Assembly (NCBI GenBank): GCA_035530615.1 | Contig: DATKUL010000003.1 | Span: 186,001 to 250,000 of the forward strand | DNA from: Candidatus Paceibacterota bacterium | Lineage (GTDB): Bacteria > Actinomycetota > Actinomycetes > Nanopelagicales > Nanopelagicaceae | Reading direction: 5' to 3' | DNA: 64,000 nt | Part shown: positions 25,677 through 57,443 of the stretch, one piece after another | Numbering within the stretch: position 1 is the stretch's first letter | Layout: every line of letters begins with the position of its first letter | Notes under the pieces: model-generated | Databases searched by the model: none | What the model saw: only the letters and a program-made list of their open reading frames with translations | What the model was told of the DNA's origin: nothing | Made by a program: the position numbers and the translations under genes

Positions 25677-25715
25677 TAAGGTCGGCAAAACCTTGATTTG
25701 AACGGAAGGTCTTAC

Positions 25716-26630
25716 ATGGGCGGCATTAAAGATTCATCTCTCGGCTTACTTCGCACGGAGCAGGTGAATTCCAAATTTCGGCACTTGGATCAGATGAGTG
25801 TTTCTGAACTTCTGCGTGCGATGAATGAAGGTGATGCAGAAGTCCCAAAGGCCATCGCACTTGAACTTCCCAAGATTGAACGTGCCATCGAAGCAATTGT
25901 TGAGCGAATGATGCACGGTGGGAGATTGATTTATATTGGAGCCGGAACTTCGGGCCGCCTTGGCGTGCTGGATGCGGTTGAGTGCAGACCGACATTCTCG
26001 GTTTCCGAAGACCAGGTTCTTGGATTAATGGCTGGTGGTGAACGCGCGTTGACTCATGCAGTTGAGGGCGCTGAGGATGATTTCCAAGCGGGGGAGAAGG
26101 ATCTGATTTCCATCAATCTTCGCCCCGCAGATTGCGTGGTTGGAATTGCTGCCAGTGGTCGGACTCCCTACGTCAAAGGAGGGCTGGCATACGCACGACA
26201 GGTTGGAGCCCTGACGATCGGGTTGACCTCCAATCCAGATTCGCAGATTTCTAAGGATGTGGAGCACCCTCTTGAAATCGACTCCGGACCCGAATTGCTG
26301 GCCGGATCAACCCGACTGAAATCTGGGACAGCTCAGAAGTTGGTACTGAACATGATCTCTACGATCACGATGGTCCGGCTGGGCAAAACATTTGGCAATC
26401 TGATGGTGGATCTGCAGATCACCAATGAGAAACTGCGAGATAGAGCGGTTCGCATCATTATGCAGGCCACGGACGCTCCTAACGAAAGGGCCTCGGCAGC
26501 GCTAGCGGAATCTGGGAATGAAGTGAAAGTGGCGATCTTGATGCTCCTTCTGAGCGTGGATGCTCCTAGCGCACGCGCACGATTGCTGGCGGGCTCGAAT
26601 CGAGTGCAGGAAGCGCTCAATTTAAATTAG
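25716..26630 (+). CDS. murQ: N-acetylmuramic acid 6-phosphate etherase
   Basis: A 304-residue SIS-domain lyase that removes the lactyl ether from MurNAc-6-phosphate to give GlcNAc-6-phosphate, the key cytoplasmic step of cell-wall sugar recycling. IYIGAGTSGRLGVLDAVECR holds the sugar-phosphate loop and the start of the catalytic region, and VGIAASGRTPYVKGGL and GSTRLKSGTAQKLVLNM are MurQ signatures. The C-terminal helical part is as in the E. coli enzyme. ATG 25716 follows GGAAGG; the TTG at 25698 is rejected. It heads the muropeptide-recycling region. Confidence 0.95.
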   Translation: MGGIKDSSLGLLRTEQVNSKFRHLDQMSVSELLRAMNEGDAEVPKAIALELPKIERAIEAIVERMMHGGRLIYIGAGTSGRLGVLDAVECRPTFSVSEDQVLGLMAGGERALTHAVEGAEDDFQAGEKDLISINLRPADCVVGIAASGRTPYVKGGLAYARQVGALTIGLTSNPDSQISKDVEHPLEIDSGPELLAGSTRLKSGTAQKLVLNMISTITMVRLGKTFGNLMVDLQITNEKLRDRAVRIIMQATDAPNERASAALAESGNEVKVAILMLLLSVDAPSARARLLAGSNRVQEALNLN

Positions 26631-26810: not shown

Positions 26811-28325
26811 GTGAAATTAGGAAAGAAGATTGCAGTCGTGGGTGTCTCTGCCGCCCTTGTGGCTGGAGTTGCTTTCGTGGCGCCTGCACAGGCCGCGAGC
26901 AAAGATCTCGTCATCGGTATCACTCTTGATATCGACAAACTAGATCCGCAGGGCGCAACCGGTTTCGGAACCGTCCGTGTACTTGGCCTGGTTTATGGCA
27001 GTTTGGTTGAAGTGGGACCCAAGCTTGATATTCGCTCTGGACTGGCAACATCCTGGGCTTTTAACGCTGCTGGCACTGCGTTGCGTCTGCACCTTCGCAA
27101 GAATGTGAAATTCCAAGATGGATCTACCTTCGATGCAACAGATGTGAAGGCATCTATCGAGAGAATTCTTGACCCCGCCAATAAGGCGGCTGCGCGCGCT
27201 AACTTGCTAACCATCAAGTCGGTCACTGTCGTCAGTAAGTACGACGTCAATTTGGACCTGACGACCCCTAATTCAGCGATTTTGGCTTCGCTAGATGGCG
27301 TCAACATTGCGATGCTTTCCAGTGATGACATCAAAGCCGGCAACGTTGGAAAGGTCGTCAACGGAACTGGGCCATTCGAGTATGTTTCTTGGGAGCCAGG
27401 TCAGTCGGTTAAGTTGGTAAAGAATTCAACCTATTGGGGTAAGACTCCCAAGTTGGATACCGTCACTTTCCGAATAATTCCAAGTGAGTCATCAGTTCTT
27501 TCTGCTCTCAATGCTGGAACAGTGCAGTTTGCAGTCATCACTGATCCATTGATTGCCAAGCAGGTTGGCAAGAATCTAAGAATGTATAAGACTCCTGCCC
27601 TTGCTTACATGGCACTTCAATTGAATGCTAGGAAAGCCCCTTTGGACAATGTAAATGTTCGCTTAGCAATTCAATGCGCGATTGATCGGGCTGAAGTTGT
27701 TAAGACCGCTCAATCTGGTGAGGGAACCGTCATCGGACCGATCACCAGCCCAGCCTACAAATCAAACCCAAATGATCGTCCATGTCCAAAGGCCAACATT
27801 GCCAAGGCCAAGCAGTATCTAACAACGGCGGGCTATCCAAACGGTCTCACCATTAAGACAATGGTTGCTCCTACCCAATTCGCAACCGCATCTGCAGTTG
27901 CACAGAGCCTGAAGGCCCAGTTGGCAAAGGCTGGCATCACCATGGATCTCGAATTGGTCGATGACTCGACTTTCGTATCTCGTTGGTTGGCTGCCGATTT
28001 CGTTACTTCCATTGCAAATAACGGTGGACGCATCGATCCAGACACGATGTACACCCGCTACTTCACCTCAACCGGCAACCTCAACAAGGTTGCAGGTTAC
28101 TCATCAGCGACACTTGATGCGCTCATGGCAAAGGGCAAGTCCACCGGCAACGTCACTCAGAGGAGAGCTGCTTACAAAGCAGTTTCTGAGGAACTTGAAA
28201 ATAATGCAGTTTGGATTTGGCTCTTCTCGCCATACGAGTACCGCGTTACTTCAAAGTCGTTGACTGGATTCATTCCGCTAGCGACTGGTTCACTTCTCGA
28301 ACTTCGCAAAGCAAACCTGAACTAA
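26811..28325 (+). CDS. Oligopeptide/muropeptide ABC importer, substrate-binding protein
   Basis: A 504-residue SBP_bac_5 family receptor. The Sec-type signal peptide (1-28, ending AQA) has no lipobox cysteine. The mature part shows the family segments LDPQGATGFGTVRVLG, YDVNLDLTTPNSAILASL, VNGTGPFEYVSWEPGQSVKLVKN and FRIIPSESSVLSALNAGTVQF. By context (murQ, anmK, epimerase) it may bind cell-wall peptides or anhydro-muropeptides; dipeptide binding is the conservative call. GTG start after AAAGGGG. A hairpin separates it from the permease genes. Confidence 0.88.
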   Translation: MKLGKKIAVVGVSAALVAGVAFVAPAQAASKDLVIGITLDIDKLDPQGATGFGTVRVLGLVYGSLVEVGPKLDIRSGLATSWAFNAAGTALRLHLRKNVKFQDGSTFDATDVKASIERILDPANKAAARANLLTIKSVTVVSKYDVNLDLTTPNSAILASLDGVNIAMLSSDDIKAGNVGKVVNGTGPFEYVSWEPGQSVKLVKNSTYWGKTPKLDTVTFRIIPSESSVLSALNAGTVQFAVITDPLIAKQVGKNLRMYKTPALAYMALQLNARKAPLDNVNVRLAIQCAIDRAEVVKTAQSGEGTVIGPITSPAYKSNPNDRPCPKANIAKAKQYLTTAGYPNGLTIKTMVAPTQFATASAVAQSLKAQLAKAGITMDLELVDDSTFVSRWLAADFVTSIANNGGRIDPDTMYTRYFTSTGNLNKVAGYSSATLDALMAKGKSTGNVTQRRAAYKAVSEELENNAVWIWLFSPYEYRVTSKSLTGFIPLATGSLLELRKANLN

Positions 28326-28440: not shown

Positions 28441-29421
28441 ATGCAGGGCGTAACTAAACTGCAACGGTTCCTCTTTTCTGCTATTACCTTACGTATCTTC
28501 AGCATCATCACCACACTCTTTGGTATCTCCATCTTTGTCTTCCTGGTTCTTCGGGTCATTCCAGGCGACACGATTACCGGCTCTTTCGGGATTGAGACTG
28601 GAGTATTAACACCAGGTCAAATTTCCGAACTGCGCCATTATTACGGCATCGATCAATCCCTCTTTCTCCAGTACATCTCTTGGATGGGGAGCTTTCTGAC
28701 CGGGCACTTTGGATATTCTTTCTCAACTGGCGTCTCTGTCATGGCGTTGACCAAGTCAGCGCTACCGGTGACGATCGAACTTGCACTCATCGGCACCATT
28801 TTGGGTGTCATCATGGGTATTGCCATCGGAATGTTCAGTGCTCGTAAACCCGGCAGTTTCCGCGACTTCGGTGGACAGTTATTTGGTTTGCTGGCATTGG
28901 CGATTCCGGGATTTGTATTGAGCACTGCAATGGTGACAATCATGGCCAATGTTTTTCATTATTTTCCAAATGGTTTGGAGTACATGACACCATGGGAAGA
29001 CCCCTGGGTTAATTTTCAACAGATGATGTTTCCGGGCCTAGTCCTCGGTATCGCCGTGGCTGCTCCCATTATGCGGACCACTCGTTCAGCTCTATTGGAG
29101 ACGGTAGATAAAGATTTCATACGAACCGCCCACGGCAAGGGTGTCCCGCCACGTAAGGTGCAATTTCGCCACGTCCTTAGAAATTCTTTGATTCCTATTG
29201 TCACAATGACGGGAATTCAATTCGGGTACTTGCTAGGTGGCGCCGTAATTGTTGAGAAGATATTTGCCCTGCCAGGAATGGGCCGACAAGTCTTGGATGC
29301 GATCACCAAACGTGAGTACGCAACCGTACAGAGCAGCGTCATGATCTTTGCGATTATGTTCGTGACTATCAACGTTCTGACCGACGTCATTTATCGAAAG
29401 ATCGATCCGAGGATTAAGTGA
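28441..29421 (+). CDS. Oligopeptide-type ABC importer permease 1 (DppB/OppB-like)
   Basis: A 326-residue permease with six membrane helices. It has a large extracytoplasmic loop after helix 1 containing FLQYISWMGSFLTGHFGYS, a DppB/OppB hallmark. The EAA-type coupling loop is RTAHGKGVPPRKVQFRHVLRNSLIPIV. GGAG lies just before the ATG. It overlaps the second permease by 1 bp (TGATG). Confidence 0.93.
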   Translation: MQGVTKLQRFLFSAITLRIFSIITTLFGISIFVFLVLRVIPGDTITGSFGIETGVLTPGQISELRHYYGIDQSLFLQYISWMGSFLTGHFGYSFSTGVSVMALTKSALPVTIELALIGTILGVIMGIAIGMFSARKPGSFRDFGGQLFGLLALAIPGFVLSTAMVTIMANVFHYFPNGLEYMTPWEDPWVNFQQMMFPGLVLGIAVAAPIMRTTRSALLETVDKDFIRTAHGKGVPPRKVQFRHVLRNSLIPIVTMTGIQFGYLLGGAVIVEKIFALPGMGRQVLDAITKREYATVQSSVMIFAIMFVTINVLTDVIYRKIDPRIK

Positions 29422-30278
29422 TGAAGCGAAAAGAGGCAGGGACCAAGGGCGGACTGCACTACTACTTGCAGAGTACAAGTGGAATTATTGGGGCGATCTT
29501 GGTTTTCATTATGGTCATTGGAGCACTCTGCTCTGCTTTTGGTTGGCTGCCGCACGATCCCTTGAACCAGAATGTCAATGATGTTTTGAAGGGACCGTCA
29601 GGGAAATATTGGTTTGGCACTGATCAATTTGGCCGAGATATTTTCTCTCGAACCTTGGATGGACTTCGTCGTTCATTAACCGTCTCCATAGTGGCGGTCT
29701 CAATAGCGGCCTTTGTCGGCGTCACCCTGGGGATCTTGGGTGGTTATCTGGGTCGGTGGTTCGACATGCTCATTACGCGTCTGAGCGATGTTATTTTTGC
29801 CTTCCCTGCCATTCTCTTGGCTCTGGCGATCGTAAATAGCTTGGGTAACTCTTGGGTTGATACTGCGCTCTCCATTGCCATTGTTTACACGCCAATCTTC
29901 ATTCGAGTAGCGCGCGGGCCGGTCTTGGCCGTGAAGGAGATGGATTACGTCAAAGTCTCGCGAATTCTTGGATATTCCTCGCCGCGAATTCTCCTCAAAC
30001 ATATTCTCCCTAACGTCACTGCCCCAATTGTCGTCCAGACTGCACTCTCACTCTCTTGGGCGATCCTGACTGAGTCTGGTCTGAGCTTTCTGGGCTTGGG
30101 CACGCAACCACCTGATGCCTCGTTAGGTCTCATGGTCGCTGACGCACAGTCACTGGCGGCATTTGCGTGGTGGACTCTCGTCTTCCCATCCCTCTTCATC
30201 ACCATGGTCGTAGTAGGACTTAACCTTGTAGGCGATGGACTCCGTGACGCATGGGATCCGGCGCGGAGGAGTTCATGA
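29421..30278 (+). CDS. Oligopeptide-type ABC importer permease 2 (DppC/OppC-like)
   Basis: A 285-residue permease. The periplasmic segment after helix 1 carries HPLN-like HDPLNQNVND and YWFGTDQFGRDIFSRTLDGLRRSL, the OppC/DppC signature. The EAA loop is YVKVSRILGYSSPRILLKHILPN, and LSFLGLGTQPPDASLG follows. ATG 29421 is preferred over GTG 29418. It overlaps the ATPase gene by 4 bp. Confidence 0.93.
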   Translation: MKRKEAGTKGGLHYYLQSTSGIIGAILVFIMVIGALCSAFGWLPHDPLNQNVNDVLKGPSGKYWFGTDQFGRDIFSRTLDGLRRSLTVSIVAVSIAAFVGVTLGILGGYLGRWFDMLITRLSDVIFAFPAILLALAIVNSLGNSWVDTALSIAIVYTPIFIRVARGPVLAVKEMDYVKVSRILGYSSPRILLKHILPNVTAPIVVQTALSLSWAILTESGLSFLGLGTQPPDASLGLMVADAQSLAAFAWWTLVFPSLFITMVVVGLNLVGDGLRDAWDPARRSS

Positions 30279-31243
30279 GTACTCCGCTTCTGTCGGTAGA
30301 GAATCTCGCGATCTCCACTATTCAAGATCCACGCATCCTCATCAACGATGTCACCTTCGAGATTCGCGAAGGCGAAGCCGTTGGCGTAGTGGGTGAGAGC
30401 GGTTCTGGTAAGACGCTTACCGCGCTTTCGATACTTGGACTTCTGCCGCGCGGCGTTGCAGTGACACAAGGGTCGATAAAGTACAACGGGATTGATCTCA
30501 ACGCCATCTCAGCGGAGGAGATGCGCAAGATAAGAGGATCTGATATTTCCATGGTCTATCAAGATCCTATGACGGCGTTGAACCCCGTTATGAAACTTGG
30601 CAAGCAGCTGCGAGAGGTCATTGAGTCCCATGAAAAGGTGGATAGCAATACGGAGCAGCGGGTACGTGATGCTTTGATGGAAGTTGGCATTCCCGATGTC
30701 GCTCGCGCTATGGAGAGTTATCCTCATGAATTTTCGGGAGGGATGCGTCAACGAGTGATGATTGCGATGGCTCTCATTCTCTCTCCCAAATTACTTATTG
30801 CCGATGAGCCGACAACGGCCCTCGATGTCACGATTCAACAACAAATTTTGGCATTGGTAGCCGAAGAGAGACGCAAGCGGAACATGTCCATGCTCTGGAT
30901 TACCCATGATCTCGGAGTCGTTGCTAACTTGGTCGACAGACTCATAGTCATGTATGCCGGCCGCATTGTGGAAGCGGGTACCGTGAAAGAGATCTTTACC
31001 CATCCGCAACATCCATATACCTATGGACTTCTCTCCTCTCTTCCAACGACCGCTGATAAAGAGCGTAAACGTCTCACCTCCATTGCTGGGGTTCCGCAGA
31101 AGCCCTGGCTCGTAGGTCAATCTTGTTCCTTTGCACCGCGTTGCTTCAAAGCCACACCTGAGTGCCGCAGCACGATCCCCCAACTCGTCGGGACTCTTGA
31201 AAAGAGTGTCTCCTGCTTTCATCCCATAGGGGCCAAAATATGA
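30275..31243 (+). CDS. Oligopeptide ABC importer ATPase 1 (DppD/OppD-like)
   Basis: A 322-residue ATPase. It has Walker A GESGSGKT (about 40), the QDPMTALNPVMK Q-loop region typical of DppD, signature FSGGMRQRVMIAMAL, Walker B LLIADEPTTALDVT and switch WITHDLGVV. The C-terminal oligopeptide extension ends with the Cys-bearing CSFAPRCFKATPECR and SVSCFHP, a pattern known to hold an iron-sulfur cluster in OppD/DppD-type ATPases. Start at 30275 (MSTPLLSV) follows GGAGG. Confidence 0.93.
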   Translation: MSTPLLSVENLAISTIQDPRILINDVTFEIREGEAVGVVGESGSGKTLTALSILGLLPRGVAVTQGSIKYNGIDLNAISAEEMRKIRGSDISMVYQDPMTALNPVMKLGKQLREVIESHEKVDSNTEQRVRDALMEVGIPDVARAMESYPHEFSGGMRQRVMIAMALILSPKLLIADEPTTALDVTIQQQILALVAEERRKRNMSMLWITHDLGVVANLVDRLIVMYAGRIVEAGTVKEIFTHPQHPYTYGLLSSLPTTADKERKRLTSIAGVPQKPWLVGQSCSFAPRCFKATPECRSTIPQLVGTLEKSVSCFHPIGAKI

Positions 31244-32193
31244 GCCTAAATATTGAAAAAGTCGAGAAGCAGTACAAGATTCTTGCAACTGGCACCCTCA
31301 TTAATGCTCTCAATGGCATCTCCATTTCTTTAGAGAACGGTCAAACCCTTGGCATCGTTGGGGAGAGCGGTTGTGGAAAATCCACCCTGGCTCGTGTGAT
31401 TTCTGGCCTGGAGAGGCCAACAGTTGGAAAAATCACGTGGGAGGGTGGCGAAATTGCTGACAAGGCGAAGAATCATATGCGTCCACTTCGCTCCAGGGTC
31501 CAATTAGTTTTTCAAGACCCGTACTCATCGCTAGACCCACGCCAGCAGATTGGTGCCGCGATTTCTGAAGTGCTTACCGTGCATAAATTGGTTCCGAAGA
31601 ATCAAATCGTGGCACGCGTGGAGGAGCTTCTCTCAATCGTCGGTCTTACATCGGATCTAAAAAATCGCTACCCTCATCAACTTTCGGGCGGACAGAGACA
31701 ACGAGTGAGTATTGCGCGAGCTCTGGCATCTGAGCCAGATCTTCTCATTCTGGACGAGCCAGTGTCTGCCTTGGATGTTTCGGTACGCGCAGAAGTCATG
31801 AATCTCTTAATTGATTTGCGTGCCAAATATGGACTCACTTACATTTTTATCAGTCACGACCTAGCAATGGTGCGCTATGTAAGCGATGTAATTGCCGTGA
31901 TGTACTTAGGAAAAATAGTGGAGTTTGGTAGTTGGGATCAGATTATTGAAAGGCCGCTGCACCCTTACACCCGAGCTCTTATCGCTGCTATGCCCGATCA
32001 CAGCATTATTGGAAACCCCGAGACTCTTTCAAAGACACTTCAAGGTGAAGTACCAGATCCGGCACACTTGCCAACTGGCTGTGCCTTTCATGCGCGTTGT
32101 CCGATTTCAGTGCCGGAGTGCAGCACTCGAGTGCCTCTCTTACTAGAAGTTTCGCCGAAACACTACGTTGCATGTCCGGAGGTTAGTGAATGA
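31240..32193 (+). CDS. Oligopeptide ABC importer ATPase 2 (DppF/OppF-like)
   Basis: A 317-residue partner ATPase. It has Walker A GESGCGKSTL, QDPYSSLDPRQ, signature LSGGQRQRVSIARAL, Walker B LLILDEPVSALDVS and FISHDLAMV. The C-terminal extension has CAFHARCPISVPECS and CPEV cysteines as in OppF/DppF. It overlaps the preceding ATPase and the following anmK by 4 bp each, so the importer and anmK form one operon. Confidence 0.93.
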   Translation: MSLNIEKVEKQYKILATGTLINALNGISISLENGQTLGIVGESGCGKSTLARVISGLERPTVGKITWEGGEIADKAKNHMRPLRSRVQLVFQDPYSSLDPRQQIGAAISEVLTVHKLVPKNQIVARVEELLSIVGLTSDLKNRYPHQLSGGQRQRVSIARALASEPDLLILDEPVSALDVSVRAEVMNLLIDLRAKYGLTYIFISHDLAMVRYVSDVIAVMYLGKIVEFGSWDQIIERPLHPYTRALIAAMPDHSIIGNPETLSKTLQGEVPDPAHLPTGCAFHARCPISVPECSTRVPLLLEVSPKHYVACPEVSE

Positions 32194-33359
32194 AAGTAAT
32201 TGGAATGATTTCCGGAACGTCCTACGATGGGATAGATGTCGCCTGCTGCGAATTCACACAGGTGGGCGACGTGATCGAAGTCAAGCAAGTAGGTTTTTCA
32301 TCCCTTGAGTATTCAGATGAACTTCATCAATTGATCGCTGATTCAATGCCTCCTCGTTCGATTGATATGGAGCGAGTATGCGTCCTGGATACCTTGATCG
32401 GCCAAGCTTTTTCACGTGCCGCTCAGAAGGCAATTGCAGAAAATTCCTTTGAGCCCGATCTCATAGTTTCACACGGACAGACACTCTTTCATTGGATTGA
32501 TGCCAGCCACAAAGCCAAGGGGACGTTACAACTCGGAGAGGCTTCATGGATTGCCGAAGAAACGGGAGTGCAGGTGCTCTCTAACATCCGCTCCCGCGAC
32601 ATAGCCGCGGGTGGGCATGGGGCGCCACTGGTGAGTGTTTTGGATCAATTGCTTCTGGGCCACAGTGAAAGTCCAGAAGGTGCCCTTAACTTGGGCGGAA
32701 TTTCGAATATAACAATTGCTGGAAAATCGGTCCTTCCGATTGCCTATGACATCGGTCCGGCAAATGGATTACTTGATGCGGCAATCTCCGCCCATTCGCA
32801 AGGTCGCGTCTCCTTTGATGAGGATGGGAAAGTTGCAGGCGCAGGAACTGTTGATACCGAACTCCTCAACTCATTTCTTGCGGAGCCTTATTATGCTTTG
32901 CCCGCCCCAAAAACCACTGGCAAAGAACTATTTCATCTTCCGTATCTCATCACTCATGCAGGTCCTGTGGATTCGTGGAATATCGAAAACCTGATGGCCA
33001 CATTATTGGAGCTCACCGTCGAAACGGTGGCACGTGAAGTGGAGAGAAACTCCCTCTCAAAACTATTCATTGCAGGTGGCGGAAGTGCGAATCCGGTCAT
33101 GATGAAGCGACTGCAGGATCGCTTAACACAATGTAAAGTCTTATCGATCTCCGAATTAGGAATAGATCCACGAGCAAAAGAGTCAATCACCTTCGCGCTG
33201 ATTGGATATCTCACTCTTCATGGGTTGCCTGGCCAGATACCGAGTTGCACCGGGGCGGATGGCGAGAGACTCCTTGGTTCACTGACACCCGGCTCAGGGC
33301 CTTTTGTCGTGCCAACACCGCTTGATGTTAAGCCGGCAAGAATTAGAGTTGTGAAGTAA
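32190..33359 (+). CDS. anmK: 1,6-anhydro-N-acetylmuramic acid kinase
   Basis: A 389-residue ASKHA-fold kinase that opens and phosphorylates anhydro-MurNAc to MurNAc-6-phosphate, the substrate of MurQ. GMISGTSYDGIDVACCEF (near residue 5) and VSHGQTLFHW are the ATP/phosphate motifs, followed by LQLGEASWIAEETG, NIRSRDIAAGGHGAPLV and LNLGGISNITI, all AnmK signatures. Its coupling by ATGA to the importer ATPase gene strongly suggests the importer brings in anhydro-sugar-containing cell-wall fragments. The last 17 bp overlap the antisense GNAT gene. Confidence 0.95.
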   Translation: MKVIGMISGTSYDGIDVACCEFTQVGDVIEVKQVGFSSLEYSDELHQLIADSMPPRSIDMERVCVLDTLIGQAFSRAAQKAIAENSFEPDLIVSHGQTLFHWIDASHKAKGTLQLGEASWIAEETGVQVLSNIRSRDIAAGGHGAPLVSVLDQLLLGHSESPEGALNLGGISNITIAGKSVLPIAYDIGPANGLLDAAISAHSQGRVSFDEDGKVAGAGTVDTELLNSFLAEPYYALPAPKTTGKELFHLPYLITHAGPVDSWNIENLMATLLELTVETVAREVERNSLSKLFIAGGGSANPVMMKRLQDRLTQCKVLSISELGIDPRAKESITFALIGYLTLHGLPGQIPSCTGADGERLLGSLTPGSGPFVVPTPLDVKPARIRVVK

Positions 33360-33855
33360 CTTGGCTGCGAAGCAGTTCCATTTCCAGAGTGCGCCAACGA
33401 GGATCTGTGCGCTCTCTGCCAGTAGGTGCAAAGCCCAATTTCTTGTAGAGGCCGATTGCGCCAGGATTAGCTTTGAAAACCCAGAGTGAGATTTCACTAA
33501 ATTTACGCACTGATAATTTATCTAGTGCAGCGGTGAGGAGCGCCTGTCCAAAGCCCTTTCCGGCACTTTTTGGGTCTACATATAAAGAAAATAGGTGTCC
33601 TCGAGACGGAAAATCAGGATCGGAGCCTATGCGAGCAATTCCGATGGGAGCATCATCAATACAGGCAACGAGAGTCTCCCGATCAGCATGTGTAGATAAA
33701 GACGGTAACCAAAGTTCGTATGCTCTCTCTTCCGTCATGGCATTTCGAACTTCCTCATTCAGTACATCACGGTATGACTTCGTCCAGCAAGAACGAAAAA
33801 TCCGGACGATGGCATCAATGTCTTCCGCTGCGCCAGTGCGAATTGTGAATTCCAT
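33343..33855 (-). CDS. GNAT-family N-acetyltransferase
   Basis: A 170-residue acetyltransferase. It has the central GNAT strands VACIDDAPIGIARIG and GHLFSLYVDPKSAGKGFGQALLTAAL, the latter being the acetyl-CoA pyrophosphate loop, then NPGAIGLYKKLGFAPTGRERTD. Substrate unknown. Start at 33855 (MEFTIRTG) is supported by TAGGCT on the minus strand, 7 nt upstream. It is the only minus-strand gene inside the muropeptide region and is convergent with anmK. Confidence 0.85.
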   Translation of the reverse strand: MEFTIRTGAAEDIDAIVRIFRSCWTKSYRDVLNEEVRNAMTEERAYELWLPSLSTHADRETLVACIDDAPIGIARIGSDPDFPSRGHLFSLYVDPKSAGKGFGQALLTAALDKLSVRKFSEISLWVFKANPGAIGLYKKLGFAPTGRERTDPRWRTLEMELLRSQVTSQL

Positions 33856-33861
33856 GGAAGT

Positions 33862-33868
33862 TAGCCTA
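33862..33868. promoter_or_regulatory. Bidirectional -10 heptamer (GNAT / epimerase)
   Basis: TAGCCTA: TAGGCT on the minus strand sits 7 nt from the GNAT ATG (leaderless). TAGCCT on the plus strand serves the epimerase, whose message would have a short leader with GGAGGT (33879-33884). Confidence 0.55.
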
Positions 33869-33887
33869 CTCAATTTTTGGAGGTTCG

Positions 33888-34919
33888 ATGAATTCGGTTA
33901 GTCGCATCTCTATTCAAACTAAGTTGCGCCAACTGAAGGAACCTTTCCGAACATCCTTGCGCACTGTCACAAACTTTGAAGTAATTGAATTCAAGATTGA
34001 AACAGATGATGGATTTATTGCATACGGTGAGGCAGTTGAGACACCAGCAATTACCGGCGATACCCTGGAGATGATACTTGTTGATTTAAATGGGCCCATA
34101 AAGGAATTTCTTAGTGGTTCTACATTCTCCTCTGCACGTGAACTGTGCGCCGGTATTGCAGAGTTGTCGGTCGTATCGAGTACAAAAGCTGCTGCTGACG
34201 TAGCACTCTTCAATCTCTCCGCGGTGATGGAAAATCTATCCTTACCTGCATTTCTTGGTTGCCGAGCGCAATCTATTGCTACCGATGTGACGATTCCGAT
34301 CTCCGAGTTGGCTGACCTGTCTGCAATAATCCAGAACCGCATTGCAGAGGGATTTCATTCGTACAAAGTGAAACTTGCCATGGAGTCAATCGAGTTATCT
34401 GTTCAAAAACTTCAGTTGATCGATCATATGGTTGGGGATCTATCGAGCATTAGGGTGGATCCAAATCAAGCGTGGACAGTAGGGCACACCCTTGACTTTT
34501 TGAAAAGGGTTGAGTCGGCAGGGCTCATCATTGAATATTTGGAACAGCCAACTCCTGCGAAGGATAAGACGGCGTTAGCGCAGATTCGCCGTAATACTGA
34601 TGTGCCGATCATGGCCGATGAATCATGTTTTACCATGCAAGACCTTCATGAACTCATTGAGTTGGATGCGGTGGATTTCGTAAATCTCAAACTTCTTAAA
34701 TCTGGCGGGATTTCTCCGACACTTGAAATGGCTGAGATAGCCAAAGAAGCCGGAGTAAAAGCCCTGGTTGGAAGCATGATGGAGGGTGATCGAGGCGTGT
34801 ATGCCGCCGCAGCATTGGCGGCCACCATTGCGCCTGATGCGGTTCATGACCTGGATGCATCTTGGTGGGCGACAGATTCCCAGATCAAGTATGCCAATGG
34901 AGAGGTGAGCCTGACATGA
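33888..34919 (+). CDS. Dipeptide (L-Ala-D/L-Glu-type) epimerase, enolase superfamily
   Basis: A 343-residue muconate-lactonizing-subgroup enolase. FHSYKVKLAM holds the KxK catalytic lysine, RVDPNQAW the first metal Asp, EYLEQPTP the second ligand, ADESCF the third and VNLKLLKSGGISPTLEM the opposite catalytic lysine. This residue set fits L-Ala-D/L-Glu epimerases (YcjG/YkfB), which convert cell-wall L-Ala-D-Glu to L-Ala-L-Glu. A different dipeptide or o-succinylbenzoate synthase is unlikely because menC is elsewhere (57444). It overlaps the serine hydrolase gene by 4 bp. Confidence 0.87.
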   Translation: MNSVSRISIQTKLRQLKEPFRTSLRTVTNFEVIEFKIETDDGFIAYGEAVETPAITGDTLEMILVDLNGPIKEFLSGSTFSSARELCAGIAELSVVSSTKAAADVALFNLSAVMENLSLPAFLGCRAQSIATDVTIPISELADLSAIIQNRIAEGFHSYKVKLAMESIELSVQKLQLIDHMVGDLSSIRVDPNQAWTVGHTLDFLKRVESAGLIIEYLEQPTPAKDKTALAQIRRNTDVPIMADESCFTMQDLHELIELDAVDFVNLKLLKSGGISPTLEMAEIAKEAGVKALVGSMMEGDRGVYAAAALAATIAPDAVHDLDASWWATDSQIKYANGEVSLT

Positions 34920-36004
34920 AGCATTTGATTGATCAGACGCTTACCCAAGTCCCGGGAATGGTGCTGGGGCTCTCCGTCGGCGGAGTCAGAACAATTGATG
35001 CCTATGGAGATAGGCAAATCTTCGGACTCGATTCCCCTTTGCCCATGACAGTGGAGACATCTTTTGATGCAGGTTCGATTACCAAAGTTCTCGCAACCAC
35101 GGCTTCGATAATGCGATTGGTCGATGTAGGTGAAATTTCCTTAGATGCTAAAGCATCGAAATATTTAAGTGCATGGTCAAATTCCGATAAATACGAAATA
35201 ACGGTGCGTGACCTACTTCTCCACAGAAGCGGATTATGGGAATGGCGACCACTTTACATTTCGGTGCACGACCCTGCGATGATAGTTGAGGAAATTGCCC
35301 GGATGCCCTTGAGATATCCAATAGGTGAAGGCCGGCATTACTCTGATCTTGGCTTCATTTCACTCGGGCAAATTCTCATCTCAATAGTCGGTGCAGATTT
35401 GCCTACCTTGGTGAAGAATCTGGTTCTACAACCTCTTGGCATGAATGCAACATGGTATGCAAGGCCACGGCCGGGTGTCCCCGTGGCTGCTACATCCCTT
35501 GGGGATGTAATTGAAAAGCAGATGGTTGTTTCCAAGATTCCATTTCCAGTTCCGGAGGAAGCCACGCAATTCAATCGGTGGCGAACTCACGTGTTAGTCG
35601 GCGAAGTCAATGATGGAAATGCATTTCACCTCTTCGGAGGAGTCTCCGGACACGCTGGACTTTTCACGGATGCCGAAGATATGTTGACATTTGGCGAAGT
35701 GATGAATGCAAGTGCGCGAGATGAGGGGAGTTACTCTGGAAAAGTCACAAGTGAGTTCCTCACAACTGGCCCTGATTCTGGCCAGCAACTTGGTTTGAGG
35801 AGCTGGACTGATACTTACGAGGGGTGTACCTCTGAATTTTTTGGGCACACCGGCTTCCCCGGTGTTGTCCTTGCTTTCTCTCCGGAGCATGATTGCGTGG
35901 CTACTCTCCTGACAAACCGCCTTCACTGTGAAGGAGAAATACCCGTCACGGAACTGCTCTGGCAACCTTTTTTGAGGGCAATTCACCAGAAGATTCACGG
36001 CTAA
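34916..36004 (+). CDS. Beta-lactamase-fold serine hydrolase, cytoplasmic
   Basis: A 362-residue serine hydrolase of the class C beta-lactamase/esterase/DD-peptidase family. The nucleophile motif is SITK (54-57), the second motif YSD in HYSDLGFISLGQ (about 141) and the third HTG in FGHTGFPG (about 310). No signal peptide or membrane helix is seen, unusual for a penicillin-interactive enzyme but logical for a cytosolic muropeptide peptidase or amidase. It is translationally coupled to the epimerase. The exact bond it cuts is unknown. Confidence 0.85.
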   Translation: MKHLIDQTLTQVPGMVLGLSVGGVRTIDAYGDRQIFGLDSPLPMTVETSFDAGSITKVLATTASIMRLVDVGEISLDAKASKYLSAWSNSDKYEITVRDLLLHRSGLWEWRPLYISVHDPAMIVEEIARMPLRYPIGEGRHYSDLGFISLGQILISIVGADLPTLVKNLVLQPLGMNATWYARPRPGVPVAATSLGDVIEKQMVVSKIPFPVPEEATQFNRWRTHVLVGEVNDGNAFHLFGGVSGHAGLFTDAEDMLTFGEVMNASARDEGSYSGKVTSEFLTTGPDSGQQLGLRSWTDTYEGCTSEFFGHTGFPGVVLAFSPEHDCVATLLTNRLHCEGEIPVTELLWQPFLRAIHQKIHG

Positions 36005-36013
36005 GGGGACACT

Positions 36014-36919
36014 ATGGTTATGGATGATGGTACGAGGCAGATATCCAAAAATTACCAAGATCTTTTAGGAGATATTGCCAATTCATTCTCTTCATTTCAC
36101 GCAAGCGAGGCGGCGATTGCGCATGCGGTCCTCGATCATCCTGACGAGGTGGCTGGGATGAATATCTCTCAACTGGCGACATTTAGCGAAACTTCAGCTG
36201 CCTCTGTTGTTCGCTTTAGCAAGGCCATGGGTTTTAAGGGGTTTCCAGATTTTCGCATGGCTCTTGTCGGCGATTTGAGTCGGAGAGAGCACCTCGGAAT
36301 TCATGGAAGTGAACTTGATGGTGGTATCACCATTCAGGATTCACCAGAGGAAGTCATTCGCAAGATTTCGCAAGCGGATGCAAGAGCCATTCAATCTACA
36401 GCTGAGCGCCTCGATGTAGATAGTTTTGTGGCCACCGTTGATGCTTGGGAGAAAGCGGATGTAATTGGGTTGATCGGCGTGGCATCCAGTGGTTATGTGG
36501 TGATGGATTTGCAGTTGAAGTTGAATCGACTGGGTAAGAAGGCGATTGCATGGAGGGATGCCCATTCTGCCCTTACTTCGATCTCATTGCTCAAACCCAA
36601 TGATGTTCTGGTGGCCGTTAGCCATAGTGGAACAACCGTTGATATTGTCGATGTTATTACTGAATTCAAAGCACGTGGTGTGAAGATTGTTCTGATTACC
36701 AATGGTCTGCGCAGTCCTTCTACCGCTCTTGCAGATGTTGTCCTCTATACATCGGCCCGAGAAACCACTTTTCGAAGTGGAGCGACAGCCAGTCGCATCG
36801 CACAATTAACTGTTGTGGATTGTCTCTGCGTCGCACTGGCCCAGCGAAACTGGAGAGATACGAAGGCGGCTTTGGATCTCTCGAGAGAGGCGGTTGGAGC
36901 CCGCTCGGGTAAGAAGTAA
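36014..36919 (+). CDS. RpiR/MurR-family transcriptional regulator
   Basis: A 301-residue regulator with an N-terminal HTH_6 domain (about 15-90, helix-turn-helix around NISQLATFSETSAASVVRFSKAMGFKGF) and a C-terminal SIS sugar-phosphate domain (about 130-265, GVASSGYVVMDLQLKLNRLG and VLVAVSHSGTTVDIV). By analogy with E. coli MurR it probably senses MurNAc-6-phosphate or a related amino-sugar phosphate and controls the genes between 25716 and 36004. It begins 9 bp after the hydrolase. The alternative start is ATG 36020. Confidence 0.88.
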   Translation: MVMDDGTRQISKNYQDLLGDIANSFSSFHASEAAIAHAVLDHPDEVAGMNISQLATFSETSAASVVRFSKAMGFKGFPDFRMALVGDLSRREHLGIHGSELDGGITIQDSPEEVIRKISQADARAIQSTAERLDVDSFVATVDAWEKADVIGLIGVASSGYVVMDLQLKLNRLGKKAIAWRDAHSALTSISLLKPNDVLVAVSHSGTTVDIVDVITEFKARGVKIVLITNGLRSPSTALADVVLYTSARETTFRSGATASRIAQLTVVDCLCVALAQRNWRDTKAALDLSREAVGARSGKK

Positions 36920-38318: not shown

Positions 38319-39131
38319 CTAGATCCGCCCGGATGCGATTGAGGCGGGGTGGGAAAGCACGAATAGGGGGAGTTGGCGCTTTGAGAGTTCTTTGACTGCG
38401 GCGACTCTCTCATCACAGTACTTCACCAAAATGTCATAGACATCCTGGCCCAAGAGTGCGATGAGTTCGCTCCGGTTGGAGATATACACAGGTTTGAGGC
38501 CAACATGCGCCTCGGTATTACTCGTGCAGTACCAGTCGAAGTCGTCTCCGCCGTCGCCCCAGGCAAGACGTTCGTACTCGCCAATGACCGTTATTGAGTA
38601 TTCGCGCTCGCCGACTTCGCGAGTTTCAAAACTTCTACGGAGTGGAAGTTGCCAACAGACATCCGGTTTTGTATCAACGAAGTGTTTTCCTTCTTTCTGT
38701 GCGAGGTGGTGAAGTACGCATCCGAAAGTTCCAGTGAATCCTTCCGCCTCAAAACCTTTGCGATTGAGGAAGATGCATGATCCATCGACCGTTCGTGTCT
38801 TGCGTTCATTTTCTTCATCTGTCTCTGAGATTTGCAGAGAACCACCTGAGAGATCGGTATGTGCGCGGTCATAGAACTGCCACATATCGCGAGTAAGTAA
38901 ATTGGCTGCCTTCTGAACTCGAACTTCGTCGTCTTCGTCTGAGTACATTGCACCCTCAGTACAGCAACCATCATTGGGGCGATCGGCGAAAACTCCCTTA
39001 CAGCCATCTCCGTAAATACAGGTCCAATATGAAGTAAGCCAAGTTAAGTCGCACTTGTATATTTCAAGTTCGTCTTTAGGATCGGTAAATTCGATCCAAT
39101 CACGAGCGAAGCCTGGCTTTATTTCGGACAT
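38319..39131 (-). CDS. Conserved Cys-rich protein, YkgJ-like, unknown function
   Basis: A 270-residue soluble protein without a known catalytic motif. Cysteines at 27, 38, 44, 56 and 57 (including GDGCKG and DGCCTEGA) plus later ones in FGCVLHHLA, DVCWQLP and DWYCTSN suggest a metal or iron-sulfur site like that of YkgJ-type (CxnCC) proteins. The C-terminal part has two conserved-looking histidines. It is upstream of radA on the same strand, a pairing I recall from other Actinobacteria. Leaderless -10 TAGGCT (minus, 39140-39145) is 8 nt from the ATG. Confidence 0.7.
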   Translation of the reverse strand: MSEIKPGFARDWIEFTDPKDELEIYKCDLTWLTSYWTCIYGDGCKGVFADRPNDGCCTEGAMYSDEDDEVRVQKAANLLTRDMWQFYDRAHTDLSGGSLQISETDEENERKTRTVDGSCIFLNRKGFEAEGFTGTFGCVLHHLAQKEGKHFVDTKPDVCWQLPLRRSFETREVGEREYSITVIGEYERLAWGDGGDDFDWYCTSNTEAHVGLKPVYISNRSELIALLGQDVYDILVKYCDERVAAVKELSKRQLPLFVLSHPASIASGRI

Positions 39132-41432: not shown

Positions 41433-43808
41433 CTAGGGTCTAACTAGGCTTATTTTACCTGCGACCGAAACCACCGCATAGCGCACCTTATTGACTCTCA
41501 CCCAAGCACTATCTTGGGTGAGAGTGCCTCGTACATTTGAAATAAGGTGAATAGAGTTTTTAGCTCCGGCGGAACTGAGATCGGCAGCGCATAGCCGACT
41601 CTGACATCCAAAAATTAAGGTTCGAGTATCAATACTGAGTTGGGCGTTTGGGAGTCCATAATTCTCGGTTGTGAGTGTCACGGGAAGCGTCGGGTCGGAA
41701 ACATTGTCCCATCGGATTTGAGTCGGTTGTGGAATTGAGATTCGGCTGGCGGTAAGCCAACTCGCAATGACACCCGCAGCCGTCTTATTGAGGGAGACTC
41801 CATAACCTGCAACAGCAATCGCGCCGTTAGAGGCATCCAAAGTTCGGTAGTTCCACTGTGGCGAATTTCCTGCTCTAGTTGCAAGTCGGACTTCACCAGC
41901 GATGACCTGTTTCTGTTGATTGACTTGGAGTACCGAGTCGTAGAGGACACTTACTTTAGAGCCTACGGCGACGGCACTTAAATGAGTACCAACATCGCCA
42001 GTGGTTCGATTGTCAGTCTTTCTATCGCCGTCAACTAGCTCGTATGCCCATTTTCCAGTCACCCCTTTGAACGCACCAAGCAGAATTCCTTGCGTTTCAT
42101 CGCGATAGAAAACCTGTAGGCCAATTGCAGTACTCGCACACGCATTGCTAATGCTTACATCGCTTGCGGTCCTAACTCTGTTTGGCTGATCGTATGGTTG
42201 AACGATGGGTCCATTTCCATCGACGATCTCAAACTTGAATTTGTTGCCGTCGTATGTTGCATGGCGCAAATCATCATCTACGAGATCGGAATAGAAAATG
42301 TGTAATGTCTGATTTCGATTGCTCCCACTTACACAAACTGAGACGGGCCCAGATGTGTCGTGAACCGTTCTCCCGAGTGTGCCACCTCGCCCATCAACCG
42401 TGATCTTTCTCCAGATTTTGCCAGTCCAGAGGGCCAATTTGAGATTCTTCCTTGTGCTCGATGTATAAACAATTGCGGGTTGAGATCTAAAAAGTGTGGA
42501 AGCTATGTGCTTTCCGTCAGAACCTGCATCCAAAATAGTCGCCTTCCACGCGGTTTGTGGTGTGACTGGATTTGTCTGGACCGTTTCGGATTGTCCTAGA
42601 TCGTTCTTTGCGAAGATGGAGAAGCTGTAGGTAACGCCATTTTTTAGCCCAGAGACAAAAACCGGACTTGATGTGGTGGTAATTTGCTCGCCCGTTTTCT
42701 CGTTTCTGATCCCGTATTCGGCTATTTGGGCGCGACGCACATTGGCGGGCAGATCGAAAGTTATGATCGTCGAACGGTCTCCAACCAACGCAGAGGGATT
42801 TTGTGGAGGAAGCGGAATTGCGCTGGGGATACCGGCGGGTGGTTTATTTCTTAAGTCCGTGAGCATGGCGACTAACAATGGACCAGGATCGTGAAAGACC
42901 TCACCCGATCCTAAATCGGGAGTCATGATTGCATTTTGCGAGGAGGCAAAAGTTGCTTCATCAAGATGGCTAACAGAAGATCCGACTTCATACCGAGATG
43001 GAGTGTAAAGAAGCGGCTTCACACCATTATTCGCCGCGATTCCTAACGGTCCAGACCACACGAGAGTATTCGTAAGTGCGATTCCTAAGTCATGCGAGGG
43101 GGATTGGAAGTCGGAAAGCCGTTGGCCGTCCAGGGTTTGCGCGTAGGCATCAAAGGCAGTTGGCTGATCGAGGATTCCATACTTGAAATATGGATCGAAC
43201 GCATTCGTGGAGAGGAAACCTAGCCCGTGGCCAAGTTCGTGGATAAAGACGGATTCCAAGTCATATTCAGTTTTCGTTGGTGCGCCATCGTTGCGCATGT
43301 CCCAAGCCGCATCTGAGTTTGCCTGGATGACTATCTCTGGGTTTGCTGGGTCCAAATCTTTGCCCGCAATTGCATTTGCTAGAGCTGAGGGATACCAGAG
43401 GGTTGCATCCGGTGTGTTTTCAAAATTCGAGAAATAGTTGCCGGGACGCGCGCTCCCCAGAATTCCAGAAGAGGACGAGCGACCCCAAGTTGCGTCCACC
43501 AAAATTGGGACACTTGATGCGAAATTCGCCGACCAGGTATCGATTGCGGCTTGTACATCTCTCTTAGCCCACTCAGGGAAATTGTTGTAGGTGACGACGA
43601 AATTGCTCTGCTTCTCCAGGTTGGTACTTGAAGTTTTCGCTGCGGTTGCATATGTGGTTGCAGATCCTGCGTACGTGTGCCCCCAAATAGTGGATGGGAT
43701 TTCATGAAAGGCAGACAGCGCAGGAGCAGAGGGGGCGCTTACGAACCCAGCAAGTACCGCCACAAGAGCAAAGCTGATGCGGATTCGGTTACGTAGGTCA
43801 GTTTTCAT
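41433..43808 (-). CDS. Large secreted metalloprotease-like protein with Fn3 domain
   Basis: A 791-residue exported protein. It has a signal peptide (about 1-32) and a zinc-protease-like domain (about 70-330) with HELGHGLGFLS at 190-200 and a Met-turn-like NAIMTPD near 297. The place of the third metzincin ligand is Ser (S200), not His or Asp. A fibronectin type III domain follows (about 340-430: GDRSTIITFDLP, YSFSIFAKNDLGQSETV). The C-terminal half (about 440-790) is beta-rich and propeller-like. It may degrade extracellular protein, but activity is uncertain. Confidence 0.75.
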   Translation of the reverse strand: MKTDLRNRIRISFALVAVLAGFVSAPSAPALSAFHEIPSTIWGHTYAGSATTYATAAKTSSTNLEKQSNFVVTYNNFPEWAKRDVQAAIDTWSANFASSVPILVDATWGRSSSSGILGSARPGNYFSNFENTPDATLWYPSALANAIAGKDLDPANPEIVIQANSDAAWDMRNDGAPTKTEYDLESVFIHELGHGLGFLSTNAFDPYFKYGILDQPTAFDAYAQTLDGQRLSDFQSPSHDLGIALTNTLVWSGPLGIAANNGVKPLLYTPSRYEVGSSVSHLDEATFASSQNAIMTPDLGSGEVFHDPGPLLVAMLTDLRNKPPAGIPSAIPLPPQNPSALVGDRSTIITFDLPANVRRAQIAEYGIRNEKTGEQITTTSSPVFVSGLKNGVTYSFSIFAKNDLGQSETVQTNPVTPQTAWKATILDAGSDGKHIASTLFRSQPAIVYTSSTRKNLKLALWTGKIWRKITVDGRGGTLGRTVHDTSGPVSVCVSGSNRNQTLHIFYSDLVDDDLRHATYDGNKFKFEIVDGNGPIVQPYDQPNRVRTASDVSISNACASTAIGLQVFYRDETQGILLGAFKGVTGKWAYELVDGDRKTDNRTTGDVGTHLSAVAVGSKVSVLYDSVLQVNQQKQVIAGEVRLATRAGNSPQWNYRTLDASNGAIAVAGYGVSLNKTAAGVIASWLTASRISIPQPTQIRWDNVSDPTLPVTLTTENYGLPNAQLSIDTRTLIFGCQSRLCAADLSSAGAKNSIHLISNVRGTLTQDSAWVRVNKVRYAVVSVAGKISLVRP

Positions 43809-55411: not shown

Positions 55412-56523
55412 TTTATTAAACCTCTCTGGGCCAGTTGGACAAGTGCGCTTCGATCAATTTTGCCGATACCGATAAGCGGTAACTCCAATAGTCTATGAAA
55501 TCCCTTAGGTTTTCCTACTTCGCCAAAAGTTTGAGCCAGAAGTGAGGAAATCTCTGCATCGGAGATTAATGTATCGGCTGCAATCGCAATATGAAGCGTG
55601 GATCCCCATTCTGGGTCGGGAACTGCGAAGGCGGCTAATTCAACCCCCGCGAAGTGGGCTTTCAGAGTTTCCTCGACCGCGCTTATAGAGACTTTCTCCC
55701 CTCCGCTGACGATGACATCGTCTGCTCTTCCCAAGATTTCTAATCTGCCATTTACATAAGTCCCGCGATCGTGTGTAATGAGCCAACCGTCTTGCAATGA
55801 CTCTTGCCATCCGGGTTCGTCATTGATGTAGGTGCTGGCAAGCGTCGTTCCCTTTATCGCCACGGTACCTTCAATAATCCTCACTTCAACGCCCGATAGT
55901 GGCCTGCCGTTGTATACGCAGCCGCCAGAAGTTTCACTCATGCCATATGTCGTAACAAGGTTGATGCCGGCTGCTTTGGCGCGCGTCGCAAGTGCAGGAG
56001 CGAGGGCAGCACCACCCACGAGAACTGCTCTGCACGTCTTCAGATGTTCCAAGAGCTCAGTTTCTCCATTTAAGGCACGAAAAAGTTGAGTCGGCACGAT
56101 TGCGGTGAAATCAGTTTTTTTATATCTCTGCTTCTGTCTCCGCTTATGCGATGAATCTCGCAGATCAACGGGCATAGTGCCAAGTTCGAGTGAGCGGACC
56201 AAGACGTTGATGCCCGCAATATGGCTCAGAGGAAGCAGGAGCGACCAGACCTGTCCGAAAGTTGCCCCAAGGAATGCATGAGATGCTCGAGCCGACGAGA
56301 GTAGAGCCGAGGCACTTAGTCCTACCTCCTTGGGCGTCCTTGTCGATCCGGATGTCGCCGTGACAACAGCTACCCCCTCGGGGACGCGGGTAGTTCTGAT
56401 ATCCCCAAAGCCGAGGGCGGGACCTTTTCCGGCTAGTGCCCTTGCCAACTCGACCATCAGAGTGGGTAGGTCGTTGGATGCGGGTATCAGCGGGCGCAGA
56501 GTTCGTTGTGACGAGTTTTCCAT
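55408..56523 (-). CDS. menE: o-Succinylbenzoate-CoA ligase
   Basis: A 371-residue adenylate-forming ligase activating o-succinylbenzoate for MenB. P-loop ATSGSTRTPKEVGLSAS, GMSETSGGCVYNGRPL, and the hinge/C-terminal ILGRADDVIVSGGEKVS and GIGKIDRSAL motifs are present. It is short, as actinobacterial MenE is. The ATG at 56523 is chosen over a GTG at 56529. It is divergent from menB and shares its -10 heptamer. Confidence 0.93.
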   Translation of the reverse strand: MENSSQRTLRPLIPASNDLPTLMVELARALAGKGPALGFGDIRTTRVPEGVAVVTATSGSTRTPKEVGLSASALLSSARASHAFLGATFGQVWSLLLPLSHIAGINVLVRSLELGTMPVDLRDSSHKRRQKQRYKKTDFTAIVPTQLFRALNGETELLEHLKTCRAVLVGGAALAPALATRAKAAGINLVTTYGMSETSGGCVYNGRPLSGVEVRIIEGTVAIKGTTLASTYINDEPGWQESLQDGWLITHDRGTYVNGRLEILGRADDVIVSGGEKVSISAVEETLKAHFAGVELAAFAVPDPEWGSTLHIAIAADTLISDAEISSLLAQTFGEVGKPKGFHRLLELPLIGIGKIDRSALVQLAQRGLIN

Positions 56524-56531
56524 TGCCACCG

Positions 56532-56538
56532 TAGGCTA
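56532..56538. promoter_or_regulatory. Bidirectional -10 heptamer (menE-menA / menB-menC-menD)
   Basis: TAGGCTA: TAGGCT on the plus strand serves menB (leader with AGGAGG at 56555-56560). TAGCCT on the minus strand serves menE, 9 nt from its ATG. Both arms of the menaquinone pathway would be fired from one site. Confidence 0.55.
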
Positions 56539-56564
56539 TCGGTCGTAACCGCGTAGGAGGAAAT

Positions 56565-57443
56565 ATGAGCAAACCGATTAAGCGTGAATTTGGCGGTCGA
56601 TCTATCCCGACATGGGAGGTCGGCCCGGGTGGTGAATCTTTCCTTGATGTCGTCTATGAAATCGCCGAAGGAATGGCGAAGATAACAATCAACCGCCCAC
56701 AGGTGCGTAACGCTTTTCGTCCGCAGACGATTATTGAATTGCAGCAAGCGTTCTCGCTAGCCAGAGATGAAGAGGAAGTTGGCGTCATTATTCTCACGGG
56801 TGCCGGCACGGAAGCATTCTGCTCTGGCGGCGATATCTCCTCTCGCGGAGACGATGGATATTTAGGCGATGATGCGCTCGCAAAGAAGGGGATTGGACGA
56901 CTTAACGTACTTGATCTACAAGTGCAGATTCGTCGCACACCAAAACCGGTTGTGGCGATGGTTGCCGGATGGGCTGTCGGTGGTGGTCATGTTCTCCACG
57001 TCGTCTGTGATCTGACAATCGCCGCTGACAATGCAAAGTTCGGACAGACGGGACCAATGGTTGGCTCATTTGACGGCGGTTATGGTGCAGGACTTCTCGC
57101 CGCACACGTCGGTCAGAAGAAGGCTCGCGAGATCTGGTTCTTAACTCGTGAATATGACGCGCAAGAGGCGCTGGAAATGGGATTGGTTAACACAGTGGTT
57201 CCTCTTGCCGAGCTTGAGGCTGAGACAGTTTCGTGGGCCCGAGAGATGCTTCGGCAATCGCCGCTGGCACTTCGACTATTGAAGGCGAGTTTGAACGCAG
57301 CAGATGACGGATTGGCGGGAGTCCAACAACTTGCAGGAGATGCCACGCTTCTCTTTTACATGACCGAAGAAGGTCAAGAGGGGCGAGACGCGTATAAAGA
57401 GAAGCGCCTTCCTAACTTTGGAAAATTTCCCAGGCGCCCGTAA
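56565..57443 (+). CDS. menB: 1,4-dihydroxy-2-naphthoyl-CoA synthase
   Basis: A 292-residue crotonase-fold enzyme that closes the second ring of menaquinone. The oxyanion-hole strands are [15 protein letters not shown] and [40 protein letters not shown] is a MenB signature and the C-terminal [14 protein letters not shown] is typical. It has a full AGGAGG before the ATG and abuts menC. Confidence 0.96.

Follow-up and report, generated by a model that had tools for sequence, protein, structure and literature searches.

The window analyzed here, a stretch of DNA of 64,000 nucleotides, carries a cluster of genes around the anhydro-MurNAc (anhMurNAc) kinase AnmK, and the question it raises is which enzyme frees the sugar from its peptide. 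AnmK and MurQ together convert anhMurNAc to GlcNAc-6-P, and the substrate of the epimerase class found in the cluster is L-Ala-D-Glu. The step without a named enzyme is the cut that gives both anhMurNAc and L-Ala-D-Glu. An earlier note on this DNA had proposed that the serine enzyme encoded after the epimerase makes one of two missing cuts, in the sugar-peptide bond or in the stem peptide. The gene order is MurQ, binding protein, two permeases, two ATPases, AnmK, a GNAT acetyltransferase on the opposite strand, epimerase, serine enzyme, and MurR/RpiR-type regulator (Table 1). The observation in that note is borne out, and the cluster proved to be longer, with MurQ at one end and the MurR/RpiR-like gene at the other, neither of which had been mentioned. 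No MurP was found among the cluster genes scanned. The identity of the epimerase is tentative because its best NCBIfam score is below the cut-off.

Table 1. Features of the cluster and of related genes (positions in the window unless another contig is named)
Feature	Position	Strand	Basis or remark
S13 carboxypeptidase	2768-4081		
NlpC/P60 protein with leader-like start	8401-9612	+	possible source of L-Ala-D-Glu stems
MurQ, MurNAc-6-phosphate etherase	25698-26630	+	TIGR00274, 381.7 bits (cut-off 302); SIS domains
Family-5 solute-binding protein with leader	26811-28325	+	PF00496; leader by simple hydropathy rule
Peptide-type ABC permease 1	28441-29421	+	profile matches
Peptide-type ABC permease 2	29418-30278	+	profile matches
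Opp/Dpp-type ATPase 1	30251-31243	+	profile matches
Opp/Dpp-type ATPase 2	31240-32193	+	profile matches
AnmK, anhydro-MurNAc kinase	32190-33359	+	NF007146, 506.8 bits (cut-off 440); PF03702
GNAT acetyltransferase, convergent with AnmK	33343-33873	-	PF00583; match in 9/9 syntenic orthologous loci
Enolase-superfamily epimerase, L-Ala-D/L-Glu type (tentative)	33888-34919	+	PF13378; best NCBIfam NF041118, 175 bits (cut-off 500)
ATGA overlap, epimerase stop and enzyme start	34916-34919	+	sequence; 4 bp
S12/PF00144 serine hydrolase, proposed cytoplasmic (anhydro)MurNAc-L-alanine amidase	34916-36004	+	ATG to TAA, 362 aa
SITK motif, nucleophile S54 and K57	35075-35086	+	S and K unchanged across window protein and 9 orthologs
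YSD motif, Y142-D144	35339-35347	+	sequence, alignment
HTG motif, H311-G313	35846-35854	+	sequence, alignment
MurR/RpiR-type regulator with SIS domain	36014-36919	+	PF01418 and PF01380; best NCBIfam is MurR/RpiR family regulator, below cut-off
Sole Amidase_3 gene of the genome	L050:1417-2550; genome contig C3 near 56330-56854	- (L050)	peptidoglycan-binding-like N-terminal part, no leader by eye

The Pfam profile search gave the enzyme a PF00144 match of 164.4 bits over residues 3 to 337 (cut-off, 27), which rules out a chance open reading frame; this is its only Pfam domain, and Amidase_2 was not matched. S54, T56, K57, Y142, S143, D144, H311, and G313 do not vary among the window protein and nine orthologs, which share 37 to 72% identity with it, and I55 and T312 are variable positions within the motifs. 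R295, R335, H238, and N232 are candidate residues for contact with a sugar-peptide. S54 and K57 are also constant in the wider set of compared rows that are ungapped at the SITK position. An AlphaFold model from these ten sequences (pLDDT, 83.4; pTM, 0.86) has a plain S12 fold, with 6kjh as top structural match (Z, 34.6; rmsd, 2.6; 318 residues aligned). Profile score, SxxK nucleophile motif, and fold thus all place the protein in S12; the earlier note had described a serine enzyme of beta-lactamase fold with SITK, YSD, and HTG. The fold by itself does not point to one function, since it is common to esterases, DD-peptidases, D-peptidases, and beta-lactamases, and in the structure search esterases, DD-peptidases, beta-lactamases, and an acyltransferase score alike. 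Among curated families, PBP4B/YfeW is the best match at 107.5 bits, with class C beta-lactamases at 55.4 at most. Class C enzymes have the signature YxN and KTG. That the protein is a beta-lactamase for resistance is scarcely credible: it has the PF00144 match and a weak class C similarity, but the class C score lies far under the cut-off of 415 for NF033085, YSD and HTG replace YxN and KTG, no leader is found, and the gene sits in a cluster of recycling genes.

The start of the enzyme gene overlaps the end of the epimerase gene, which suggests translational coupling. The location of the enzyme was judged with a simple hydropathy rule devised for this analysis rather than with SignalP. In its first version, the rule called a leader in 10 of 12 binding proteins, all 13 permeases, and 13 of 20 NagZ proteins, and in none of 17 AnmK, 14 MurQ, 16 ATPase, and 2 epimerase proteins; applied to the enzyme, it also flagged two loci (L113 and L118), in which the call was triggered by the first strand of the fold. 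The tightened rule considers only the stretch ahead of the domain and called both of its positive controls, YfeW and the binding protein of the window. By the hydropathy rule, there is no leader from the annotated start, from the in-frame starts upstream (34862 and 34865) and downstream (34925), or in the nine orthologs from any start tested. The AlphaFold model places the start of the first helix at residue 2 and that of the first strand at residue 14, which would leave no room for a leader. The missing signal peptide claimed from the sequence was thus borne out for the alternative starts too, and secretion from a different start is ruled out, every in-frame start being leaderless by this rule.

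We then asked what the genome offers in place of the enzyme. In the whole genome (2,162,394 bases in 3 contigs, rated 100% complete), Pfam searches gave no match to Amidase_2 (AmpD), GH3 (NagZ), S66 (LdcA), or NamZ, so that the absence noted earlier for the cluster holds genome-wide for these families. With the same profiles, matches were found in 6, 10, 6, and 3 of 14 control genomes, respectively. The sole Amidase_3 protein, which we take to be CwlM-like by its architecture, has DPSGGG where three aligned solved amidases have DPGHGG, has Asp at the position of their Glu, and starts without a leader. As both catalytic residues, His and Glu, are replaced, it is ruled out as the missing amidase, and its sequence suggests that it is probably a catalytically dead CwlM-like regulator. 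A second PF00144 protein (C2:103176) was likewise rejected, as its start holds a membrane segment (by eye). MltG is present, and there are five NlpC/P60 matches, one of which is the protein at 8401-9612 of the window; judged by eye, the frames of four have leader-like starts.

The absence of LdcA fits a different role for the enzyme, that of a stem peptidase, either a cytoplasmic carboxypeptidase removing D-Ala or a dipeptidase acting on L-Ala-D/L-Glu beside the epimerase. The gene overlap with the epimerase, the structural matches, which include the R61 DD-peptidase and D-peptidases, and the nearest curated family point the same way; yfeW (PBP4B) was reported as a DD-carboxypeptidase, going by a title cited in PMC5061867. 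We nevertheless consider a stem peptidase unlikely. The S13 protein of the window may already cover DD-carboxypeptidase work, and AnmK would be left without free anhMurNAc, there being no other intact amidase among the families searched.

The distribution of the enzyme was followed in 60 genomes, this one included, of which 37 form one family (f1). An ortholog at an E value below 1e-60 was found in 10 of the 60, all within the family, and AnmK was found in exactly these 10 of the 37 family genomes, with no match in the remaining 27; these 37 genomes are not independent trials, because the genes of the cluster are inherited together and several of the genomes are incomplete. Amidase_2 occurs in 1 of the 37 (G015, 83% complete). 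The order importer, AnmK, GNAT, (epimerase), enzyme is retained in 9/9 orthologous loci, within the limits set by the contig ends. In two of them (L032 and L039), the epimerase is absent from its usual place while AnmK and the enzyme are retained, which indicates that the enzyme tracks AnmK and argues against a stem peptidase. MurR is not adjacent to the enzyme in L037, and none was seen in L038. Outside the family, AnmK above the cut-off is present in three of the 60 genomes (G043, G052, and G055), all of which also have Amidase_2, and only G055 has a stretch homologous to the enzyme near AnmK (about 3.4 kb away); AnmK is thus not always accompanied by such an enzyme. Several relatives have genes for a sugar-type ABC importer and a kinase of the BadF/BcrA type after MurR or the enzyme (L036:11267-15262; also L032, L035, and L037 by gene sizes), possibly for uptake of MurNAc or GlcNAc with a MurK-like kinase; both are absent from the corresponding place in the window genome.

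A wider search of genome contigs with this protein family as query gave at least 568 confirmed loci, and the best 80 matches were named and their context read; the frequencies that follow describe the nearest kin only, because these 80 are the best matches to the query. Within 9 kb, AnmK together with an ABC importer was found in 14 of the best 80, AnmK alone in 3, NagZ without AnmK in 17, and none of these in 46. The epimerase of the window was matched in only 2 of the 14 loci with AnmK and importer (among the best 80 of 568, some loci being cut short), a further point against a stem peptidase. As to location, leader-like N-termini were found in none of the 17 AnmK-linked loci among the best 80 of 568 and in none of the 10 family loci, versus 33 of the 43 untruncated loci that have neither AnmK nor NagZ within 9 kb (best 80 of 568; three truncated loci of 46 set aside). 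A Fisher test of 0/17 against 33/43 gives 2e-8, a figure inflated by relatedness; the 17 NagZ-linked loci were excluded, two of them being flagged via stretches inside the upstream frame. With relatedness allowed for, the association of leader and AnmK context is not significant, with 3 independent pairs on supported branches.

The GNAT gene lies beside the cluster in 9/9 orthologous loci, and a GNAT was matched in 7 of the 14 loci with AnmK and importer (best 80 of 568), in L097 about 8 kb off. In three Bacillaceae clusters, the GNAT protein has two matched stretches (L110:8965-9915, L107:3558-4538, and L131:4408-5358). We are aware of no MurNAc route with a GNAT step; speculatively, the substrate of the one in the cluster may be a de-N-acetylated sugar or an amino acid set free in the breakdown.

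Phylogenetic analysis was done on 91 rows by quick search with midpoint rooting and SH-aLRT support, the context label of the window and the nine orthologs being assigned by hand. The window enzyme falls in a group of 16 rows (SH-aLRT 96, starred) made up of the window, the nine family orthologs, and six named loci, all from Actinomycetota wherever a phylum is listed. All 16 adjoin AnmK, and the importer was seen in 15, the contig of L031 ending within AnmK. Escherichia coli YfeW has a long branch and clusters with 16 proteins from Bacillota (91, not starred), 15 of which have leaders. A third group of 33 rows (99, starred) comprises proteins linked to NagZ, others apparently fused to it, and a second set next to AnmK and ABC importers, namely, L118 and a subgroup of six (90, drawn open) from Paenibacillus, Thalassobacillus, Sporosarcina, Geodermatophilaceae, and an unclassified bacterium; a further row of this context, L058, stands apart from the other groups. 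In Paenibacillus sp. N3.4 (L124), the locus reads AnmK, binding protein, two permeases, enzyme, two ATPases, MurQ, a short epimerase-like frame (264 aa), and a MurR match, and in Bacillus litorisediminis (L110) the order is GNAT, enzyme, NagZ, AnmK. This second set and these two layouts show that the pairing with AnmK occurs in separate parts of the tree.

Two further arrangements were observed among the named loci. A homologous domain is apparently fused behind a GH3 NagZ in L099, L100, L101, L103, L105, L115, L119, L120, L128, and L130, where the frame is open far upstream and the NagZ match lies about 1.5 kb ahead of the domain, as in RmNag3. Oceanobacillus L131:4408-12321, with GNAT, MupG, NagZ, a leaderless homolog of the enzyme, and a MurR match, is another layout of a recycling cluster.

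The context also bears on an esterase or deacylase, similar to family VIII esterases, that would act on recycled fragments or other imported compounds as a passenger in the operon. Although many relatives by S12 fold are esterases (IS11, EstB, and Est-Y29), the co-occurrence with AnmK in the family and the repeated finding of such enzymes alongside AnmK, MurQ, and NagZ in other phyla make such a role very unlikely. A 6-O-acetylesterase in particular would have no obvious substrate beside AnmK, because 1,6-anhydro-MurNAc has no free O6 for an acetyl group.

That the enzyme makes one of the two missing cuts, which we infer as the earlier note did, is supported by the genome-wide absence of AmpD, NagZ, LdcA, and NamZ, the co-occurrence with AnmK in the family, the lack of a leader, the recurrence beside AnmK and an ABC importer in other phyla, and the existence of characterized relatives in operons for MurNAc. 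The sugar-peptide (MurNAc-L-Ala) amide is a likelier target than a bond of the stem peptide. Judging from the sequence and its context, we think it probable that the protein is a cytoplasmic S12 serine amidase of the AmiE type that does the job of AmpD, cutting the lactyl-L-Ala amide of (1,6-anhydro)MurNAc in an imported stem, and its substrate is probably the L-Ala-D-Glu form of the (anhydro)MurNAc-peptide.

Known systems provide parallels for such an amidase. AmpD is a zinc enzyme of the Amidase_2 family. The proposed role, to free anhMurNAc from the stem in the cytoplasm so that AnmK can use it, is that of AmpD, whereas the window enzyme is a serine S12 protein in a genome without an Amidase_2 match. 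AmiE (YbbE) of Bacillus subtilis belongs to PF00144 and is given as an extracellular MurNAc-L-Ala amidase, encoded in the operon murQ-murR-murP-amiE-nagZ-ybbC (PMC5061867, PMC10653849; also PMC6987092). Likened by description rather than by alignment, the two share PF00144 and a cluster with MurQ and a MurR-type gene, and by analogy may share the cut of MurNAc-L-Ala. AmiE, however, works outside the cell with NagZ, NamZ, and the PTS importer MurP, whereas the window enzyme is leaderless and goes with an ABC importer and AnmK, in a cluster without NagZ, NamZ, or MurP. YfeW, encoded by the last gene of E. coli murQP-yfeW, shares SxxK, YSD, HTG, and a GHAGLF block, but the score of the window enzyme is far below the cut-off of 385 for NF002968, YfeW has a leader where the window enzyme has none by the hydropathy rule, the two lie in different groups of the tree, and R335 of the window enzyme is K in the 17 rows of the YfeW group. 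As AmiE and PBP4B each have defining features that were looked for and not found, the enzyme is filed as neither.

In RmNag3 of Rhodothermus marinus, a NagZ-type GH3 is fused to a beta-lactamase domain, and its authors link it to peptidoglycan turnover (PMC6987092); as described there, it is GH3 fused and has a signal peptide, whereas the window enzyme is stand-alone and leaderless. Import of muropeptides by an ABC transporter into cytoplasmic recycling was shown for YejBEF-YepA of Agrobacterium tumefaciens (PMC9790009); the importer is of the peptide type as in the window, but the amidase there is AmpD, and NagZ is present. With AmiE, YfeW, RmNag3, and the Agrobacterium importer, each step has a precedent, and MurQ and AmiE make the proposal of the earlier note less novel than it had appeared. 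In titles and abstract openings of the open-license literature, which are weak evidence of absence, we noticed no report of a leaderless S12 amidase combined with AnmK and an ABC importer, and what appears new here, as read from the sequence, is this combination in a genome without AmpD or NagZ.

The proposed amidase would act in the following route. Wall cutting outside the cell would give anhMurNAc-peptides, from which a secreted NlpC/P60 enzyme, cutting after D-Glu, would produce anhMurNAc-L-Ala-D-Glu, a form usable by a cluster without LdcA. The peptide-type ABC importer would carry this presumed cargo into the cell; as no NagZ was found, the cargo must come without GlcNAc, or another enzyme must act. 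S54, presumably activated by K57 and Y142, would attack the amide to form an acyl enzyme on the lactyl carbonyl and free the dipeptide, and water would release anhMurNAc. AnmK would then make MurNAc-6-P, which MurQ would convert to GlcNAc-6-P and D-lactate, and the epimerase would turn L-Ala-D-Glu into L-Ala-L-Glu for breakdown. The MurR/RpiR protein may sense a sugar phosphate. That the whole cluster is a self-sufficient route for anhMurNAc-L-Ala-D-Glu without AmpG, AmpD, NagZ, or LdcA, by ABC import, serine amidase, AnmK, MurQ, epimerase, and MurR, we put forward only tentatively. AnmK, the ABC importer, the serine amidase, MurQ, an epimerase-like gene, and a MurR match recur together in the Paenibacillus locus, and since the amidase there lies elsewhere in the tree, replacement of AmpD by a cytoplasmic serine enzyme may have happened more than once.

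In Actinobacteria and in many Bacillota, the recycling of peptidoglycan shows gaps at the steps of AmpG, AmpD, and NagZ. If the proposal is true, a serine enzyme that is conserved next to AnmK and a peptide importer would take the place of the missing amidase and explain the supply of substrate to AnmK. It would also correct "beta-lactamase" annotations and give a testable enzyme for clusters in several phyla.

Two other genes of the window, both on the reverse strand, encode proteins without a Pfam match at 1e-5. One, adjoining radA (38319-39131), encodes 270 residues and is 73 to 89% identical in four relatives where it was read. The other (41433-43808) encodes an exported-looking protein of 791 residues that contains HELGHGLGF, a zinc-metalloprotease-like motif.
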